Below, one piece after another: positions 44,434 through 51,591 of a stretch of DNA of 60,153 nt. How positions within the stretch are numbered: position 1 is the stretch's first letter; each line of letters starts with the position of its first letter. A model generated the notes under the pieces. The model did no database searches, was not told the DNA's origin, and saw only the letters and a list, made by a program, of their open reading frames with translations. A program made the position numbers and the translations under genes. The stretch comes from Pelotomaculum sp. PtaU1.Bin035 (GTDB lineage: Bacteria > Bacillota > Desulfotomaculia > Desulfotomaculales > Pelotomaculaceae): positions 24,001 to 84,153 of the forward strand of contig MVRN01000038.1 of the NCBI GenBank assembly GCA_002067965.1, read 5' to 3'.

Positions 44434-45219
44434 CTACTCTTCCTCTCCGGATGCTACCCTTTCTTTGCCGCCGCTCTTAGGCCTCAAAAAAGCGGTCAAC
44501 CTTTCCCGGATCAGCACCGGGTTATAGCCGGCCTGGATCGACATGATCCCCTCCACCATCATCTCGCGCAACATGGCTTCTTTTTTACTGAGGTTCTTCA
44601 ACTTTGCAGCTATGGGAAGCCATAAAAGGTTCGCCGACCCGACACCGTAAAGGGTGGCGATAAAAGCAAGGGCGATAGCGGGCCCCAGGGTCTCCGGCGA
44701 TTCAAGGTTGCTGAGGACGTGCACCAGCCCCATTACCGTCCCGATGATGCCCATGGTCGGAGCATATCCCCCGGCAGCTTCGAAGATGCTCGCGCCGATA
44801 TGGTGGCGCTCCTGAATAGCATACATCTCAGTCTCCATAATCTGCCGGACCAGCTCCGGGTCGGTGCCGTCCACCACCAACTGGATCCCTTTGCGCATGA
44901 AGTTGTCTTCCACATTGGGTAGTTCGTTTTCCAGATACAAAAGACCTTCCCGGCGCACCTTGTCTGCCAGGGAAACCAACTGTTCAATCAAGGATACTTC
45001 GTCAGGCAGCTTGCTGAATAAGATTATTTTTATCAACTTGGGGATAGTCGATATTTCACTCAATGAAAATGCGATGACCGTCGCGCCAAGGGTCCCCCCA
45101 AAAACGATCATGGCCGCGGTAGGCTTGAGCAATGACAAAATATGCCCGCCGTCCAGCACAAAAGCCATCACCAGGGAAAGCACGCCCACTGCTATCCCTG
45201 CGACTGTGGTAATCTCCAC
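44434..45219 (-). CDS. motA: Flagellar motor stator protein MotA
   Basis: Four membrane segments (TVAGIAVGVLSLVMAFVLDG; AAMIVFGGTLGATVIAFSLS; PTMGIIGTVMGLVHVLSNL; LGPAIALAFIATLYGVGSAN) with the cytoplasmic loop between the second and third are typical of MotA, which with MotB forms the ion channel that drives rotation. The start is GTG at 45219, with GGGAGAG 10 bases upstream. Length is 261 residues. It is the first gene of the mot-che unit; I see no convincing SigD promoter in front of it. Confidence 0.92.
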   Translation of the reverse strand: MEITTVAGIAVGVLSLVMAFVLDGGHILSLLKPTAAMIVFGGTLGATVIAFSLSEISTIPKLIKIILFSKLPDEVSLIEQLVSLADKVRREGLLYLENELPNVEDNFMRKGIQLVVDGTDPELVRQIMETEMYAIQERHHIGASIFEAAGGYAPTMGIIGTVMGLVHVLSNLESPETLGPAIALAFIATLYGVGSANLLWLPIAAKLKNLSKKEAMLREMMVEGIMSIQAGYNPVLIRERLTAFLRPKSGGKERVASGEEE

Positions 45220-45357
45220 GTTACAACATCTCTCCCTGTGAATAAATTACATTTTTTGGAGCATTTACGCCTATGTATTGCCTAGCAGTTTATTCTATGG
45301 ATCCCTTTATTTCTCTCTACCGGCAATTTTACATTTTACTTCGACGCAAATTTTATT

Positions 45358-45379
45358 ATTCCTCTAACATTGGAGGAAT
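45358..45379 (-). terminator. Possible terminator after butyrate kinase
   Basis: ATTCCTC and GAGGAAT arms around an 8-base loop, with an A/T-rich but T-poor tail on the minus strand. Confidence 0.45.
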
Positions 45380-45387
45380 TATCTTAT

Positions 45388-46458
45388 TTAATATATCTTC
45401 GCTGCCTCAAGCCCCGCCAGCACTCTAAGACCGCTGGCGGCAAGGGCTTCCATTTCGTTCTCCCCGGGATATATCCTGACGGGGGCGATAAAACGCACTC
45501 TTTCTTCTATCCACCCAACCAGCATGCCGCTGTGGGCAATACCGCCCGTAATGACGACAGCGTCGACATCGCCCTTCAATACAGCGCCGCAGGCGCCAAT
45601 TTCTTTAGCCACCTGGTAGGCCATGGCCTCATATATCAAACTCGCCCGGCCGTCGCCTTCTTCAACACGTCTTTCCACCTCCAGCGCGTCGCTGGTCCCC
45701 AGATAAGCCATAAGCCCGCCTTTCCCCACCAGTTTCTTCATCATATCTTCCCTGGTGAAACGCCCGCTGAAGCACATTTCCACCAGTTTTCCCACGGGCA
45801 GGCCCCCGCTTCTCTCCGGCGCAAACGGACCTTCACCCGCAAGCGCGTTATTTACATCGATAACCCGGCCCTTTGAGTGAGCGCCGACCGATATCCCGCC
45901 GCCCAGATGAGCGACAATGAGGTTTGATTCATTATAATCCTTCCCAATGTCCGCCGCCGCCCGCCTGGCCACAGCTTTCTGGTTGAGGGCGTGAAACAAG
46001 CTTTCCCTGGGGTTTTCCGGCATTCCGGAAATACGTGACAAGGGTTCTTTTTCATCAATGCACACAGGGTCGACGATATACGCCGGGATCCCCAATTCAC
46101 CGGCAATGGAATGAGCGATCAGCCCACCGAGGTTCGACGCGTGTGACCCGCGTTTTTCCGCTTCCAGATCCCGGACCATCGCTTCGTTTACCAGATAGGT
46201 GCCCCCCGGTAAGGGTTCCAGCAACCCGCCCCTGCCGACAACGGCATCCAGATCACCAGGCTTAACGCCTGACTTCAACATAGCGCCGGTGACAAGCTTT
46301 CGCCTGTATTCAAACTGATCAATAATCCCTTTAAACTTTCCCAGGTCTTCGCCGCCATGCCTCAGCGTTTCCGAGTATACAGGCTCCCGGTCCCTAAAGA
46401 CCGCGAGCTTGGTCGAAGTTGATCCGGGGTTAATGATAAGCAGCAAAAAACTTTTCAT
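45388..46458 (-). CDS. buk: Butyrate kinase
   Basis: LLIINPGSTSTKLAVF (phosphate-binding loop), VGRGGLLEPLPGGTYLVNEA, VAHLGGGISVGAHSKGRVID and NNALAGEGPFAPERSGGLP are diagnostic of Buk within the acetokinase superfamily. It interconverts butyryl phosphate and ADP with butyrate and ATP; branched-acid kinases of the same family are an alternative. Longer starts reach 46554, inside clpB, but ATG at 46458 with GAGAG upstream gives the usual 356 residues. It lies 31 bases after clpB with no phosphotransbutyrylase gene in the window, an unusual neighbour for a heat-shock operon. Confidence 0.88.
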   Translation of the reverse strand: MKSFLLLIINPGSTSTKLAVFRDREPVYSETLRHGGEDLGKFKGIIDQFEYRRKLVTGAMLKSGVKPGDLDAVVGRGGLLEPLPGGTYLVNEAMVRDLEAEKRGSHASNLGGLIAHSIAGELGIPAYIVDPVCIDEKEPLSRISGMPENPRESLFHALNQKAVARRAAADIGKDYNESNLIVAHLGGGISVGAHSKGRVIDVNNALAGEGPFAPERSGGLPVGKLVEMCFSGRFTREDMMKKLVGKGGLMAYLGTSDALEVERRVEEGDGRASLIYEAMAYQVAKEIGACGAVLKGDVDAVVITGGIAHSGMLVGWIEERVRFIAPVRIYPGENEMEALAASGLRVLAGLEAAKIY

Positions 46459-46489
46459 TTCAGCATAACTCTCTTTCATGTAGTTGCAT

Positions 46490-49096
46490 TTATTTACATT
46501 CAGACACAAGCCGGCTTTCAAAAACCAGCCCGCCGCCGGCAGGGTCCGCGTCAACCAGGATTTGATCGCCCTGAGCGATATTTCCTTCTAAAATATATAC
46601 AGAAAGCGGGTTTTCCAAGCGCTTCTGAATCGCGCGTTTGAGCGGCCGCGCGCCGTAAACCGGGTCAAAGCCTTCTTTAGCCAGAATTACCCCGGCCTCC
46701 GCTGTCACTTCCAGGGAAATCCCCAGTTTAGCCAGCCGCTGTTTTAACAAAGCCAGTTGAATATCAACTATTTTAGCAATTTCATCCTTACCAAGGTTAT
46801 TGAAAATAACCACCTCGTCAACCCGGTTCAAAAATTCGGGGCGGAAGCTGGACTTGAGTTCTTCCATTACGCGCGCTTCCAGTTCAGCCCGGTTGCCCCC
46901 GTTTAATTCTCTGAACCAGTGGCCGCCCAGGTTGGATGTCATAATCACCACGGTGTTCCGGAAATCAACAGTCCGCCCGTGACCGTCGGTCAGCCTGCCG
47001 TCGTCCAGCAGTTGCAGCAGGATATTGAATACGTCCGGGTGCGCCTTTTCAATTTCATCGAAAAGGACCACCGCGTAGGGACGCCGCCGCACGGCTTCCG
47101 TCAGCTGGCCGCCCTCGTCATAGCCGACGTATCCCGGGGGCGCCCCGATCAGGCGGGACACGGCATGCTTCTCCATATACTCGCTCATATCGTAGCGCAG
47201 CATAGCCCGTTCGTCGTTAAATAAAAGGTATGCCAGAGACCTGGCCAGTTCTGTCTTGCCTACTCCCGTAGGCCCGAGGAAGATAAACGAGCCCACCGGC
47301 CGGTTCGGGTCGGAAACCCCGGCCCTGGCCCGGCGAATGGCGTCGGACACCGCCTGCACCGCCCGGTCCTGGCCTACCACCCGCTCCCGGATATGTTCCT
47401 CCATCTGCAAAAGTTTCTGCAATTCGCCTTCCAGCATACGGGAAACCGGGATGCCGGTCCACTTGGCCACCACCTGGGCGATGTCTTCTTCGTCCACTTC
47501 TTCTTTCAGCATTTTATGCGCTTTCTGCAAATCCGCGAGCTGCTCGTTATTCCGCTGCAGGCGCTTTTCGAGGCCGGGCATCACCCCGTAACGCAGTTCG
47601 GCCACCTTGCCCAGGTTGCCGTCCCGCTCGGAGGCCTGCTCGGCCAGCCTGGTCTCCTCGATTTTGCCCTTAATCTCCCTGATGCCCTGGATCAGCTCTT
47701 TCTCCTTGCGCCAGTGATCCTTTAATTCTTCCATCTTGTCCTTTAGTCCCCGGAGTTCATCCTCCATCCTGGCCAGCCGTTCCAGGCTTCCTTTATCCTG
47801 TTCTTTTGATAAAGCCTGCTTTTCTATTTCCAGCTGCCTTGACCGGCGGTCGATCTCGTCAATCTCAGTCGGCATGCTGTCTATCTCAATGCGCAGCCGG
47901 GAAGCCGCCTCATCGATCAGGTCGATGGCCTTGTCAGGCAAAAAACGCTCGGTAATGTAGCGGTGGGATAACGCCGCGGCGGCAACCAGGGCGGCGTCCT
48001 TCACCCTCACCCCGTGGTGCACCTCGTATTTTTCTTTCAAGCCGCGCAAAATTGCGATTGTGTCCTCCACCCCGGGCTCTCCCACATAGACCTGCTGGAA
48101 CCGGCGCTCCAGAGCGGCGTCTTTCTCAATATGCTTGCGGTACTCATCCAGCGTAGTGGCGCCCACGCACCGCAATTCACCCCTGGCCAGCGCCGGCTTC
48201 AGCATATTGGCGGCGTCAACGGCCCCCTCGGCGGCGCCGGCCCCCACCAGGGTATGCAATTCGTCGATAAACAGGACTATTTCACCATTGGCCTCGTTAA
48301 TTTCTTTTAACACTGCCTTCAGCCGGTCTTCAAATTCACCCCGGTATTTCGACCCGGCCACCATGGCCCCGATATCCAGGGCAAGCAGCCGCTTGTCTTT
48401 CAGGCCTTCCGGGACGTCCCCGCTGAGAATTCGCTGGGCCAGCCCTTCCACGATGGCTGTCTTGCCAACCCCCGGCTCGCCGATTAATACCGGGTTGTTT
48501 TTTGTGCGCCGGGAGAGCACCTGGACCACCCTGCGGATTTCCTCATCCCTGCCGATTACCGGGTCCAGTTTCCCCTTGCGCGCCATGTCGGTTAGGTCAC
48601 GGGTAAAACGGGAAAGCGACTGGTATTTATCCTCCGGATTCCGGTCAGTAACCCGCTGGGTGCCGCGGATCTCCACCAATATTTTGTAAACCCGGTCAGG
48701 GGTCACTCCGGCCTGGCGCAGGATCTTTCCGGCTTCGCCATTCCGCCGGGCAACCATCCCCAATAGGACGTGTTCTGTGCTCAGGTACTCGTCCTTAAGG
48801 CGCTCGGCCTCCTTCCAGGCCAATTCCACCATCTCCGAAAGCCCTTGGGAAATATACACGCCCCCGGCGCCACGCACCTTGGGCAGGCGTTCGACAGCAG
48901 CCTGAATCTGTAATCTCAGCTTCGCCACATCAATTTCCATCTTCTGTAATATTTGCCGGACAACACCTTCTTCCTGCTCAAGCATGCCCAAGAGAAGGTG
49001 CTCTTCCTCCATCTGCTGGTGGCTGTGCCTTATCATTATGCTCTGGGCAGCTTCAAAAGCTTCCTGGGTTTTTAAAGTAAGTTTATCCATACGCAT
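46490..49096 (-). CDS. clpB: ClpB disaggregase (Hsp104 family)
   Basis: The N-terminal double Clp repeat (about residues 5-140) is followed by AAA domain 1 with GEPGVGKT and LFIDELH, a long coiled-coil middle domain (about 400-530), AAA domain 2 with GPTGVGKT and [14 protein letters not shown], and a C-terminal D2-small domain. With DnaK/DnaJ, ClpB pulls proteins out of aggregates; it lacks a ClpP-binding loop. Length is 868 residues, standard. Ribosome site GGAGGAGGGG precedes the ATG. It follows the hsp20 and dnaJ-like genes and probably shares their CtsR-type control. Confidence 0.95.
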
Positions 49097-49099
49097 TTT

Positions 49100-50080
49100 T
49101 TAACCCCTCCTCCCGGGTTTTTTAATCACTTTAGCTAATTGAGCGCGTGGATTTTCCTTATTTAACTCCGCGAGCTTCTCATACAGCTCTTCCTCACGCC
49201 GGGTAACGGTCTCAGGGATCACGACTTTTACTTTTACCATCAAGTTTCCCGGACTGCCCCCGCCCGGTTCCGGCATTCCCATGCCCCGCAGGCGGAAAAC
49301 CCTGCCCGCCTGGGTCCGCGGCGGTATTTTCAGAGTAACCGTCCCTTTTAAAGTAGGAATGTCCACTTCTCCGCCCAAGACTGCCTCTGTTGCCGTAACC
49401 GGTATTTCACATTCCAGGTCTTTGCCATTCAAATTATACAGTTGGTGGGGCTGCAGGCCGATGGACAGGTAGAGGTCGCCGGCCGGGCCGCCCTTCTTGC
49501 CGTTCCCACCCTGCCGCGGCACCCGCACCTTGAAGCCTTCCCTCACACCAGCCGGAATTTTTACCTTTAAATGGCGGCCGCCGGCCATAAATTCCTTTTC
49601 CACACCGTTATAGGCCTCCTCCAGGCTGAGTTCTAGCAGCGCCTCCGTATCCGATTGACCCCTGCCCTTATTCCGGCTCTCCCAATAAAGGTCTGAGTCG
49701 GTAAACGGGTCCATATCGCCGAAAAAGGTCCTGAAAAAGTCACTGAAGCCTCCATAGCCCGGGCTTTCATAGTGGAACCGGATACCGCCGGGCCCGGCCT
49801 CCCGCCACTGGTCATTGCCCCGCTGGTACTTGCTCCAGTCAAAATTCTGCCAGTCCGCGCCCACATCCGACCCTATTTCATCGTATTTCTTCTTTTTCTC
49901 CGGGTCGCTCAAAACTTCATAAGCCTCACCGATCTCTTTAAAACGCTCTTCCGCCTTTTTATCACCCGGGTTGGCGTCCGGGTGATAACGGCGCGCCAGT
50001 TCCCGGTAGGCCTTTTTTATGGCCTTGGTACCGGCTGACTTCTCCACTCCGAGAATTTTATAGTAGTCTTTATACTGCAT
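49100..50080 (-). CDS. DnaJ-like co-chaperone (CbpA type, no zinc finger)
   Basis: The J-domain [20 protein letters not shown] with the HPD motif ([10 protein letters not shown]) occupies residues 4-70. A Gly/Phe/Trp-rich linker follows (about 75-140), then the two C-terminal beta-sandwich domains. No CxxCxGxG repeats are present, so it is CbpA/DnaJ2-like rather than full DnaJ. It stimulates DnaK ATPase. The longest frame starts at 50173, but ATG at 50080 with AAAGGGG upstream starts the J-domain (326 residues). Only 3 bases separate it from clpB. Confidence 0.9.
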
Positions 50081-50193
50081 ACCGGCACACCCCTTTCCAC
50101 GGTCCCGGTCCGTCCCATTTGCGCGTGCTTGCAAAAAGGCGAGGGCAATTCCCTCGTCTATAAAAAGTATCAACCAACCGGGAGACTTAAAAT

Positions 50194-50643
50194 TTATCCT
50201 TCAATCTTAATGTTTACTTCTTTTTTCTTGGACACTTCTTCCTTGGGCAAGGTAATTTCCAGGATACCGTCCTGATAACGGGCTTTTACCATGTCCTGTT
50301 TTACGGGTACATCCACCGTGAAGGACCGGCTAAAGGAGCCGTAGCTGCGTTCGACCCTGATGAAGTTTGCCCCTTCCTCTTTTTCTTCTTTCTTGCGCTC
50401 GCCCCGGATTGTGAGAATATTGTCCGCAAAACTAATTTTTATGTCTTCCTTGTTGATCCCCGGCAATTCAGCCTTGATCTGGACAGTGTCAGGAGTATCT
50501 TTAATATCGACCGGGAATGCTCCGCCCTGGGCAAGTGTTGCCTCAGGCGCCTTCAAGAAGCGAAAGTTGTCGTCAAAAAGCTTGTTGATTGAGGACTGCA
50601 AACCCACCAAATCACGAAACGGATCCCATTTGACTATTGCCAC
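50194..50643 (-). CDS. Small heat-shock protein Hsp20 (alpha-crystallin)
   Basis: [21 protein letters not shown] is the usual N-terminal arm; [36 protein letters not shown] and [18 protein letters not shown] form the alpha-crystallin beta-sandwich, ending in a short basic tail with IKI. It binds unfolding proteins without ATP and hands them to DnaK/ClpB, both partners of the genes downstream. The GTG at 50652 almost touches its ribosome site; GTG at 50643 with GAGGTG 6 bases upstream is preferred (149 residues). Confidence 0.93.
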
Positions 50644-50712
50644 AACAGACACCTCCCATTTTATTATCCTTATTGATTAATACGGCTCCCGGCGGTTGAA
50701 TTGTCAGATAAG

Positions 50713-50747
50713 TTGACCTTCACTGATATACTGACCTTAATTGACCT
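50713..50747 (-). promoter_or_regulatory. CtsR-like operator of the hsp20-dnaJ-clpB operon
   Basis: On the minus strand AGGTCAA (50741-50747), a 3-base spacer, then AGGTCAG (50731-50737) form the tandem heptad of the CtsR box (RGTCAAA-NAN-RGTCAAA). A third AGGTCAA lies at 50713-50719. The sites begin directly after the -10 element, so bound repressor would block transcription. Confidence 0.75.
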
Positions 50748-50748
50748 T

Positions 50749-50777
50749 AGTATAAACTATGTATTAAATCCTGTCAA
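50749..50777 (-). promoter_or_regulatory. Sigma-A promoter of the heat-shock operon
   Basis: Minus strand: TTGACA (50772-50777), 17 bases, TATACT (50749-50754), nearly a perfect housekeeping promoter. Confidence 0.88.
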
Positions 50778-50885
50778 GCTTAATCTTGTAAGATAATCCA
50801 AAAATTATTTTTTACATCTTTAACGGATTTTAGCCCTTGCACCCTCTAATTAAGCAGCCCTAACCTTTCATCCTTCCATATTATG

Positions 50886-50894
50886 TGATATAAT
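50886..50894 (+). promoter_or_regulatory. Extended -10 promoter
   Basis: TGATATAAT, a consensus TATAAT with an upstream TG; the -35 (TTTCAT) is poor. It lies about 30 bases before the small membrane ORF at 50927. Confidence 0.5.
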
Positions 50895-50926
50895 ATAAAA
50901 AATATCTCCGAAAGGGCGGGAATGAT

Positions 50927-51028
50927 TTGCTTTTGATTCTCGGATCGATCTTAATTCTAGGTTTTCTTATCGGCGCTACTACGGTAATCTATTTTCAAAA
51001 CAGGCCCCCACACGGGAGAAAACCTTAA
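50927..51028 (+). CDS. Small single-pass membrane protein (33 residues, putative)
   Basis: A TTG start after GGGCGGGA encodes one hydrophobic helix (LLILGSILILGFLIGATTVI) followed by a short basic tail (RPPHGRKP). An extended -10 promoter lies just upstream and a T-rich stretch (near 51060) just downstream, so it may be an independent unit. I recognise no family. Size and topology are like those of many small stress or sporulation membrane peptides. It could be non-coding, and the start codon is not secure. Confidence 0.4.
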   Translation: MLLILGSILILGFLIGATTVIYFQNRPPHGRKP

Positions 51029-51174
51029 TTTCCAAGCTGACACCGGGTCTCTCAAGGAGGCCTTTTCTTTTTTTCCCGGCTGCCGTGAAATGCCCGGCAG
51101 GATCTTCATTTTCTGCGAAACTCATATTTAATGGTATACAAGCATACATATATAAAAAAGAAAGGAGGCTTGTC

Positions 51175-51591
51175 ATGAGGATTATTTCGGCTGCTATCGC
51201 AGGCTTAATCACCGGGCTTCTCCTGTATCTGCTCGTCTTCCTCGCCGTTCCGAAGGCTGCTTTCACTGCGTTTCTGGCCGGCTGGGCGGCATCTGGCCTG
51301 TTGTTTTACCGCAAGGCGGAATCTGCCGGGATAATATGGTCAAGGGCATGCCTGACCGCGGCGGCATTATGCCTGATCATCCCGGCAACATCATGGTTTT
51401 TGCCATTTTTCTACGGGCAGCAGGCCGTCCAAACTACGAAACAAAGTGTTTACCACGCGGGCCAGGCTTTCGGGTCAGCGCTCGGCGGCGGCCTGGTAAA
51501 TCTGCTGGCAGGCTCAGCCGGCATCTTGATCGGTTTCTTGCTCCTCTTCACCGCCTACTTCTCCTTAAAGCCCGCAAGGCGAAAAAGATAG
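51175..51591 (+). CDS. Unrecognised four-helix membrane protein
   Basis: The protein has 138 residues with about four hydrophobic segments (IISAAIAGLITGLLLYLLVF; AFLAGWAASGLLFY; LTAAALCLIIPATSWFLPFF; LLAGSAGILIGFLLLFTAYF) and a basic C-terminus. No family is recognised. AAAGGAGG lies 6 bases before the ATG, stronger than any support for the 51085 start. A Gln/Lys/Tyr-containing loop between helices three and four is the only polar part. It stands alone and is followed by a terminator. Confidence 0.75.
   Translation: MRIISAAIAGLITGLLLYLLVFLAVPKAAFTAFLAGWAASGLLFYRKAESAGIIWSRACLTAAALCLIIPATSWFLPFFYGQQAVQTTKQSVYHAGQAFGSALGGGLVNLLAGSAGILIGFLLLFTAYFSLKPARRKR

Follow-up and report, generated by a model that had tools for sequence, protein, structure and literature searches.

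In the 60,153-nucleotide stretch of the Pelotomaculum sp. PtaU1.Bin035 genome analysed here (the window), a small heat-shock gene, hsp20, heads a row of four genes lying on one strand, hsp20, dnaJ, clpB and buk. The locus raises the questions of which regulator acts at the hsp20 promoter, how far its control extends into the genes downstream, and whether the hsp20 message carries signals of its own.

Promoter and CtsR box of hsp20

The promoter is on the minus strand, with the -35 hexamer TTGACA at 50772..50777 and, after a 17-base spacer, the -10 hexamer TATACT at 50749..50754. In a scan of window positions 45000-51500, TTGACA-N17-TATACT is the top sigma-70-like match (11/12), which agrees with its initial description as near-consensus. 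Two bases past the -10 hexamer starts the box GGTCAAT-TAA-GGTCAGT (50730..50746, minus strand). In terms of heptads, AGGTCAA (50747-50741) is followed after 3 bases by AGGTCAG (50737-50731), and a lone third half-site, AGGTCAA (50713..50719, minus strand), is found 11 bases beyond the second heptad. The letters, coordinates and spacings that the initial annotation gave are all exact. The CtsR consensus consists of two direct heptads, RGTCAAA, with a spacing of 3. The window box matches it at 6/7 and 5/7 heptad bases and satisfies the NAN spacer. As the box lies 2 bases after the -10 hexamer, the hsp20 transcript must begin within or adjoining it.

The window's genome (G000) is a 98%-complete draft of 2.54 Mb in 128 contigs. 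The initial annotation had named the lack of a ctsR gene as a refutation of its reading, and this refutation does not hold. The single ctsR (PF05848, 117.8 bits, both CtsR domains) is found in the order ctsR-mcsA-mcsB-clpC; mcsB was matched as protein arginine kinase, and mcsA was named by its position and cysteine pairs, without a Pfam match. The promoter of this operon is TTGAAA-N17-TATAAT, followed 7 bases on by AAGGTCAATTAAGGTCA and then AA, and the 17-mer AAGGTCAATTAAGGTCA is identical at the hsp20 site and at ctsR's own promoter. When <=3 mismatches are allowed, AAGGTCAATTAAGGTCAAA occurs at three places in G000: the ctsR promoter (0 mismatches), the hsp20 site (2) and one other (3). The loose pattern RGTCA-N5-RGTCA shows no enrichment in G000, with 12 matches vs 14 for the reversed control.

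In 25 same-family genomes AGGTCARNNANRGTCA has 48 matches, compared with 4 for the reversed control pattern. The hsp20 site is not a chance match. By our own classing from downstream ORFs, 28 of the 48 precede hsp20 (16, one a remnant), ctsR (8), dnaJ (2) or clpB (2); the remaining 20 were not placed before any of these genes, and several are inside ORFs. The gene ctsR is present in 60/60 relatives. A strict box stands behind a -10-like hexamer in 16/17 same-family hsp20 orthologues, the exception being G013, with one mismatch (CGTCA in the second heptad). Same-family hsp20 paralogues G000p, G001p, G015p and G016 are box-less. Where hsp20 has been lost, the box stands before clpB (G024, G007) or dnaJ (G015, G008). 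At locus L114 (G022) an hsp20 remnant is found between the CtsR box and clpB, a gene being lost with its promoter staying.

Because ctsR is present in the genome, the same 17-mer occurs at the ctsR promoter and the box is conserved before hsp20, the site is, as judged from sequence, a CtsR operator, as the initial annotation had proposed. That the box serves a different regulator with a similar repeat is scarcely credible: the second heptad GGTCAGT does depart from the consensus at two places, but the same 17-mer precedes ctsR itself and G000 has few other close sites. The third half-site is present at the 11-base spacing first described, but it is private to the window's genome and is not kept in the same-family hsp20 promoters compared, which rules out a conserved second operator. 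In G011 a third copy of its own is found at a different spacing; in G014, G019, G024 and G008 the third heptad is degenerate and has a period of 10 instead.

The site resembles the CtsR operators of Bacillota (clpC operon, clpE, clpP, hsp18) in its direct heptad repeat with 3-base spacing at a promoter, in the ctsR autoregulatory site and in having a small heat-shock gene as target. It differs in that the window hsp20 heads an hsp20-(dnaJ)-clpB unit, in the lone third half-site, and in the addition of buk, in G000 only. A distinctive regulon, as had been suggested for hsp20, is not upheld, since CtsR control of hsp18/hsp20 has been reported: the accessible text of one paper gives hsp18 under CtsR in Clostridium acetobutylicum (PMC3828012), and that of another gives CtsR at hsp18, shown by test, in Oenococcus oeni (PMC6305308). 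A literature search, with subscription papers outside its scope, found no report on CtsR boxes in this family. The CtsR part of the finding is an ordinary, already known kind of control. It should also be noted that a ClpP search of G000, a draft 98% complete, brought up no canonical ClpP; its sole match to the ClpP family was weak (90 bits, G000:C1:543-1061, L272).

The gene unit and its terminator

The hsp20 gene (50194..50643, minus strand) encodes a small heat-shock protein of 149 aa (PF00011, 2.5e-24) with a GTG start, set by spacing from the Shine-Dalgarno sequence GGGAGG (50652..50657, minus strand). Downstream on the minus strand are dnaJ, encoding a cbpA-type co-chaperone (49100..50080; PF00226 and PF01556), clpB (46490..49096; TIGR03346, 1348 bits, cut-off 1232) and, 31 bases past clpB, buk (45388..46458; TIGR02707, 535 bits, cut-off 289). 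The profile matches bear out all four gene identities of the initial annotation (hsp20, CbpA-type DnaJ, ClpB, butyrate kinase), but a terminator between hsp20 and dnaJ had been missed. This is an intrinsic-terminator-like hairpin, CGAGGGAATTGCCCTCG, followed by CCTTTTT (50133..50156, minus strand), detected by scan and in relatives. Relatives have a hairpin of the same type, ACGAGGG..CCCTCG-T-run, behind hsp20 whether or not dnaJ is there, and so do other families. By the search rule it is absent after hsp20 in G032 and G089, where GCGAGG-type arms are visible by eye, and it is unconvincing in G065 and G067. The hairpin sequence itself (GCGAGGG..CCCTCGC) is conserved beyond the need of termination alone. 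Given a terminator between hsp20 and dnaJ, full-length co-transcription would occur, probably as partial read-through.

No promoter-like match was found between clpB and buk at the scan's threshold. Among 17 clpB-bearing same-family long loci (the window and L123-L138), buk is behind clpB in 3 and directly adjoins it in the window only. In L123 and L127 the phosphate butyryltransferase gene, ptb, precedes buk, both behind clpB, with ~0.4 kb between clpB and ptb in L123. The window has no ptb between clpB and buk (45388-46490; compare L123 3819-4736, and L127). With ptb missing from this slot, the position of buk looks like a deletion scar of ptb loss. A reading of buk as a designed member of the regulon is ruled out by the adjacency to clpB, which is not conserved, together with the ptb-buk order in two relatives.

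Complementary elements at the two ends of the hsp20 message

An unexpected feature, missed by the initial annotation, is complementarity between the 5′- and 3′-UTRs of hsp20, here termed the clasp. The 5′-UTR element, CAACC-G-CCGGGAG (50686..50698, minus strand; core GCCGGGAG, 50693-50686), is complementary to 50184-50171, the site of the 3′-UTR element CTCCCGG-TT-GGTTG (50171..50184, minus strand). Positions 50693-50686 pair with 50184-50177, the last pair being G.U, and CAACC/GGTTG extends the core helix over a small internal loop (50698-50694 with 50175-50171). In nearly all aligned same-family leaders, GCCGGGAG is found between the box and the Shine-Dalgarno sequence. Its reverse complement, CTCCCGG(T/C), is found in the trailers directly past the hsp20 stop, ahead of the conserved terminator. 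In G000 no matching clasp was found for the ctsR leader with the ctsR or clpC trailers, nor for the hsp20 leader with the dnaJ, clpB or buk trailers. Rfam covariance models applied to the hsp20 leaders and trailers of 17 loci yielded 3 weak matches, none of which reached its gathering score.

The complementarity was scored at 78 loci (31 + 47) as the best ungapped helix that 110 bases of leader can form with 60 bases of trailer; this score replaced unrestricted RNAduplex runs on complete leaders and trailers, which were uninformative (z near 0). For the window alone the ungapped helix is weak (k=14/200, and 21/500, in shuffles), and with internal loops allowed k=1/200. Across loci, complementarity exceeds chance: 21 of 28 core-sharing loci are at k<=1/200 shuffles. 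These 28 were picked from the 78 because they share a CGGG/TGGG core, and anchoring them on the best helix biases the result towards pairing. These loci represent six families (f1, 17 loci; f7, 5; f16, 3; f5, f13 and f9, 1 each). Weak loci, with k per 200, are G072 (62), G089 (22), G017 (9), G011 (5), G032 (2) and G065 (2); G089 has 10 bp once its trailer is extended 10 bases further. The 17 f1 hsp20 loci have a mean of -25.0 kcal/mol, with 14 at <=-20 and 13 at <=-22. The corresponding values are -12.8, 1 and 0 for 150 other ORFs, these controls being ORFs with a Shine-Dalgarno sequence in the window and L123-L139, called mechanically and with spurious ones included.

The complementarity is GC-rich and 8-17 bp long (17 bp in G044), with a distance of 35-87 nt from its 5′ side to the start codon downstream. 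Pairs such as CGCCGGGGCAT/ATGCCCCGGCG in G014, CTGCCGGGAGCC/GGCTCCCGGCAG in G005 and TGTTGGGGGAGAC/GTCTCCCCCGACA in G054 are examples. The clasp element is absent from the three same-family hsp20 paralogues tested (G000p, G001p, G015p). At the hsp20-less loci L112 (G024), L149 (G007), L099 (G015) and L122 (G008), one clasp element or decayed relics remain.

An ungapped alignment (A1) of the 28 pairs, 13 base pairs in length, was assayed for covariation; relatedness among loci inflates the counts that follow and can inflate the scores. Standard pairs occupy 86% of cells vs 74.6% in shuffled alignments, and the covariation score is 0.377 vs 0.188, a value reached in 0/500 shuffles. Cells changed on both sides number 54 vs 24.6 shuffled. 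Double changes occur in 9/13 pairs vs 7.1 shuffled, only a modest excess since 27/500 shuffles reach 9. Sliding the partner by 1-3 columns lowers pairing to 33-55%. The CGGG/CCCG core is invariant or nearly so, and by our count the 8 core pairs depart from Watson-Crick pairing 14 times, 10 of them as G.U. Compensatory change is thus found in the hsp20 leader-trailer pair. The matching ends of the hsp20 mRNA have evolved in concert, and they probably hold the message in a loop.

Among the 50 other hsp20 loci, 5 display sequence-unrelated complementarity in the same places at k<=1/200 (G055, G103b, G107, G108a, G110a), of which G103b is doubtful, as its 3′ side is also part of a local hairpin. 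Leader-trailer complementarity of 17 and 13 bp, also of unrelated sequence, was seen around other hsp20 genes at L175 (G108) and L174 (G110). A phylum-wide set of 30 loci, two of them already included, added 2/28 at k<=1/200, L249 and L255, both from one genus. These two, outside the order, have a common 10-bp leader-trailer complementarity, ATAGCGGACC/GGTCCGCTAT. With 2/28 phylum-wide loci in one genus, a general property of hsp20 genes is ruled out, and the element belongs to the order.

The leaders of families f1, f16 and f5 have CtsR-like boxes, exact or near. In f7 and f13 a MerR-type regulator gene is found directly upstream of hsp20; two of these regulators, scanned with the HspR model, scored 94.0 and 102.8 bits, just under the cut-off of 105. 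In f9 the upstream coding end is similar, by eye. The clasp thus occurs downstream of CtsR boxes as well as of HspR-like genes and is independent of CtsR.

Possible roles of the clasp

When the complete hsp20 mRNA was folded by partition function, the leader-trailer helix formed with P>=0.85 in 21/28 loci at 37 C and in 21/28 at 55 C, compared with 2/68 similar-sized control ORFs that reach P 0.85. In 7/28 mRNAs P is <0.85, and in G017 it is near zero. Some loci offer the 3′ element another partner, the LPK codons that close the hsp20 reading frame.

The main rival to pairing within one message is that the 3′ element is freed as a terminator-ended 3′-UTR small RNA that base-pairs in trans, either with the hsp20 leader, as an autoregulation, or with other leaders. 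The same complementarity would serve, a conserved hairpin terminator follows the 3′ element in most loci, and conservation is fairly high also in the outer bases of the element (GGCAGGTTG), outside the paired core. However, no internal promoter or processing site is known, and the whole-mRNA folds favour intramolecular pairing. We consider a role in trans unlikely.

A helix that blocks translation until heat, as an RNA thermometer or an icaR-type anti-Shine-Dalgarno sequence, should also be considered. Small heat-shock genes often carry RNA thermometers, and CTCCC resembles an anti-Shine-Dalgarno sequence. But the helix is equally likely at 55 C and 37 C, and it does not include the Shine-Dalgarno sequence, since its 5′ side, the best partner of the 3′ element, precedes the start codon by 35-87 nt. 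As the helix does not melt, a thermometer is ruled out, and as the 5′ side is clear of the ribosome so is an icaR-type 3′UTR; little credence is left for blocked translation, and closure of the message remains.

A similarly improbable reading takes the two elements for half-sites in the DNA at which some regulator would loop the hsp20 gene. The invariant or nearly invariant core would fit a protein site, but ~500 bp and a gene separate the elements, and both sides change together with G.U tolerated. The sequence-unrelated complementarity at 5/50 other loci (G103b again doubtful) likewise speaks for pairing over a protein site. Several loci have a T-run behind the 3′ element, which raised the possibility that the long-range helix is the terminator itself; this was not supported. 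G065 and G067 are without a good separate hairpin, but have a local hairpin formed with the CDS end.

Closure of the message has counterparts in other bacteria. According to the accessible text of a review (PMC7821165), the 14-nt interaction in hbs protects from RNase Y, the hbs 3′UTR is not conserved among close relatives, and the generality of the mechanism is called open. The hsp20 clasp resembles B. subtilis hbs as described there in being a leader-trailer pairing of one short mRNA in a Gram-positive organism with RNase Y, and its 8-17 bp compare with the 14 nt of hbs. It differs in being kept by covariation across six families, around a heat-shock gene, and in that for hsp20 only the presence of an RNase Y gene in the genome (789 bits) is seen. 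With S. aureus icaR and RNAIII it shares 5′UTR-3′UTR pairing within one mRNA and a C-rich 3′ side (PMC7821165 and PMC3868564, accessible text); the icaR 3′UTR pairs with the ribosome-binding site (PMC7821165, same text), whereas the hsp20 partner is well upstream of it. A literature search with subscription papers outside its scope found no report of 5′/3′-UTR pairing for hsp20. By analogy with hbs, protection from decay is the likeliest function, and the hsp20 clasp is probably a heat-stable 5′/3′-UTR pair akin to that of hbs, affecting mRNA decay.

Two layers of control are, in our estimation, likely: a CtsR-blocked hsp20 promoter, and a leader-trailer clasp that closes the hsp20 mRNA and guards it against decay. 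Active CtsR on the box, which overlaps the transcription start just past the -10 hexamer, would block the promoter; heat or protein stress would inactivate CtsR, and hsp20 would be transcribed. The conserved terminator past hsp20 would stop most transcripts, and a minority would continue into dnaJ and clpB, in G000 also reaching buk, left behind clpB after the presumed ptb loss. The leader-trailer helix would close the hsp20 mRNA with the ribosome-binding site and the entire reading frame in the loop. Formed in cells, it may guard the leader against decay by RNase Y or a 5′ exonuclease, as for B. subtilis hbs, so that the message for the small heat-shock protein would last through heat stress. 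More tentatively, and with somewhat less than even confidence, the clasp may keep the hsp20 message intact and translated in heat, and may sway the choice between a stop at the terminator and read-through into clpB.

Few bacterial 5′/3′-UTR pairings have been described, those in the accessible text of the review being RNAIII, icaR and hbs (PMC7821165). If the present reading is true, a covariation-backed clasp across six families would represent mRNA closing under lasting selection. The message it closes would be a short one induced by heat, whichever regulator acts at the promoter, and the two sites lend themselves to simple mutants for decay, translation and read-through.
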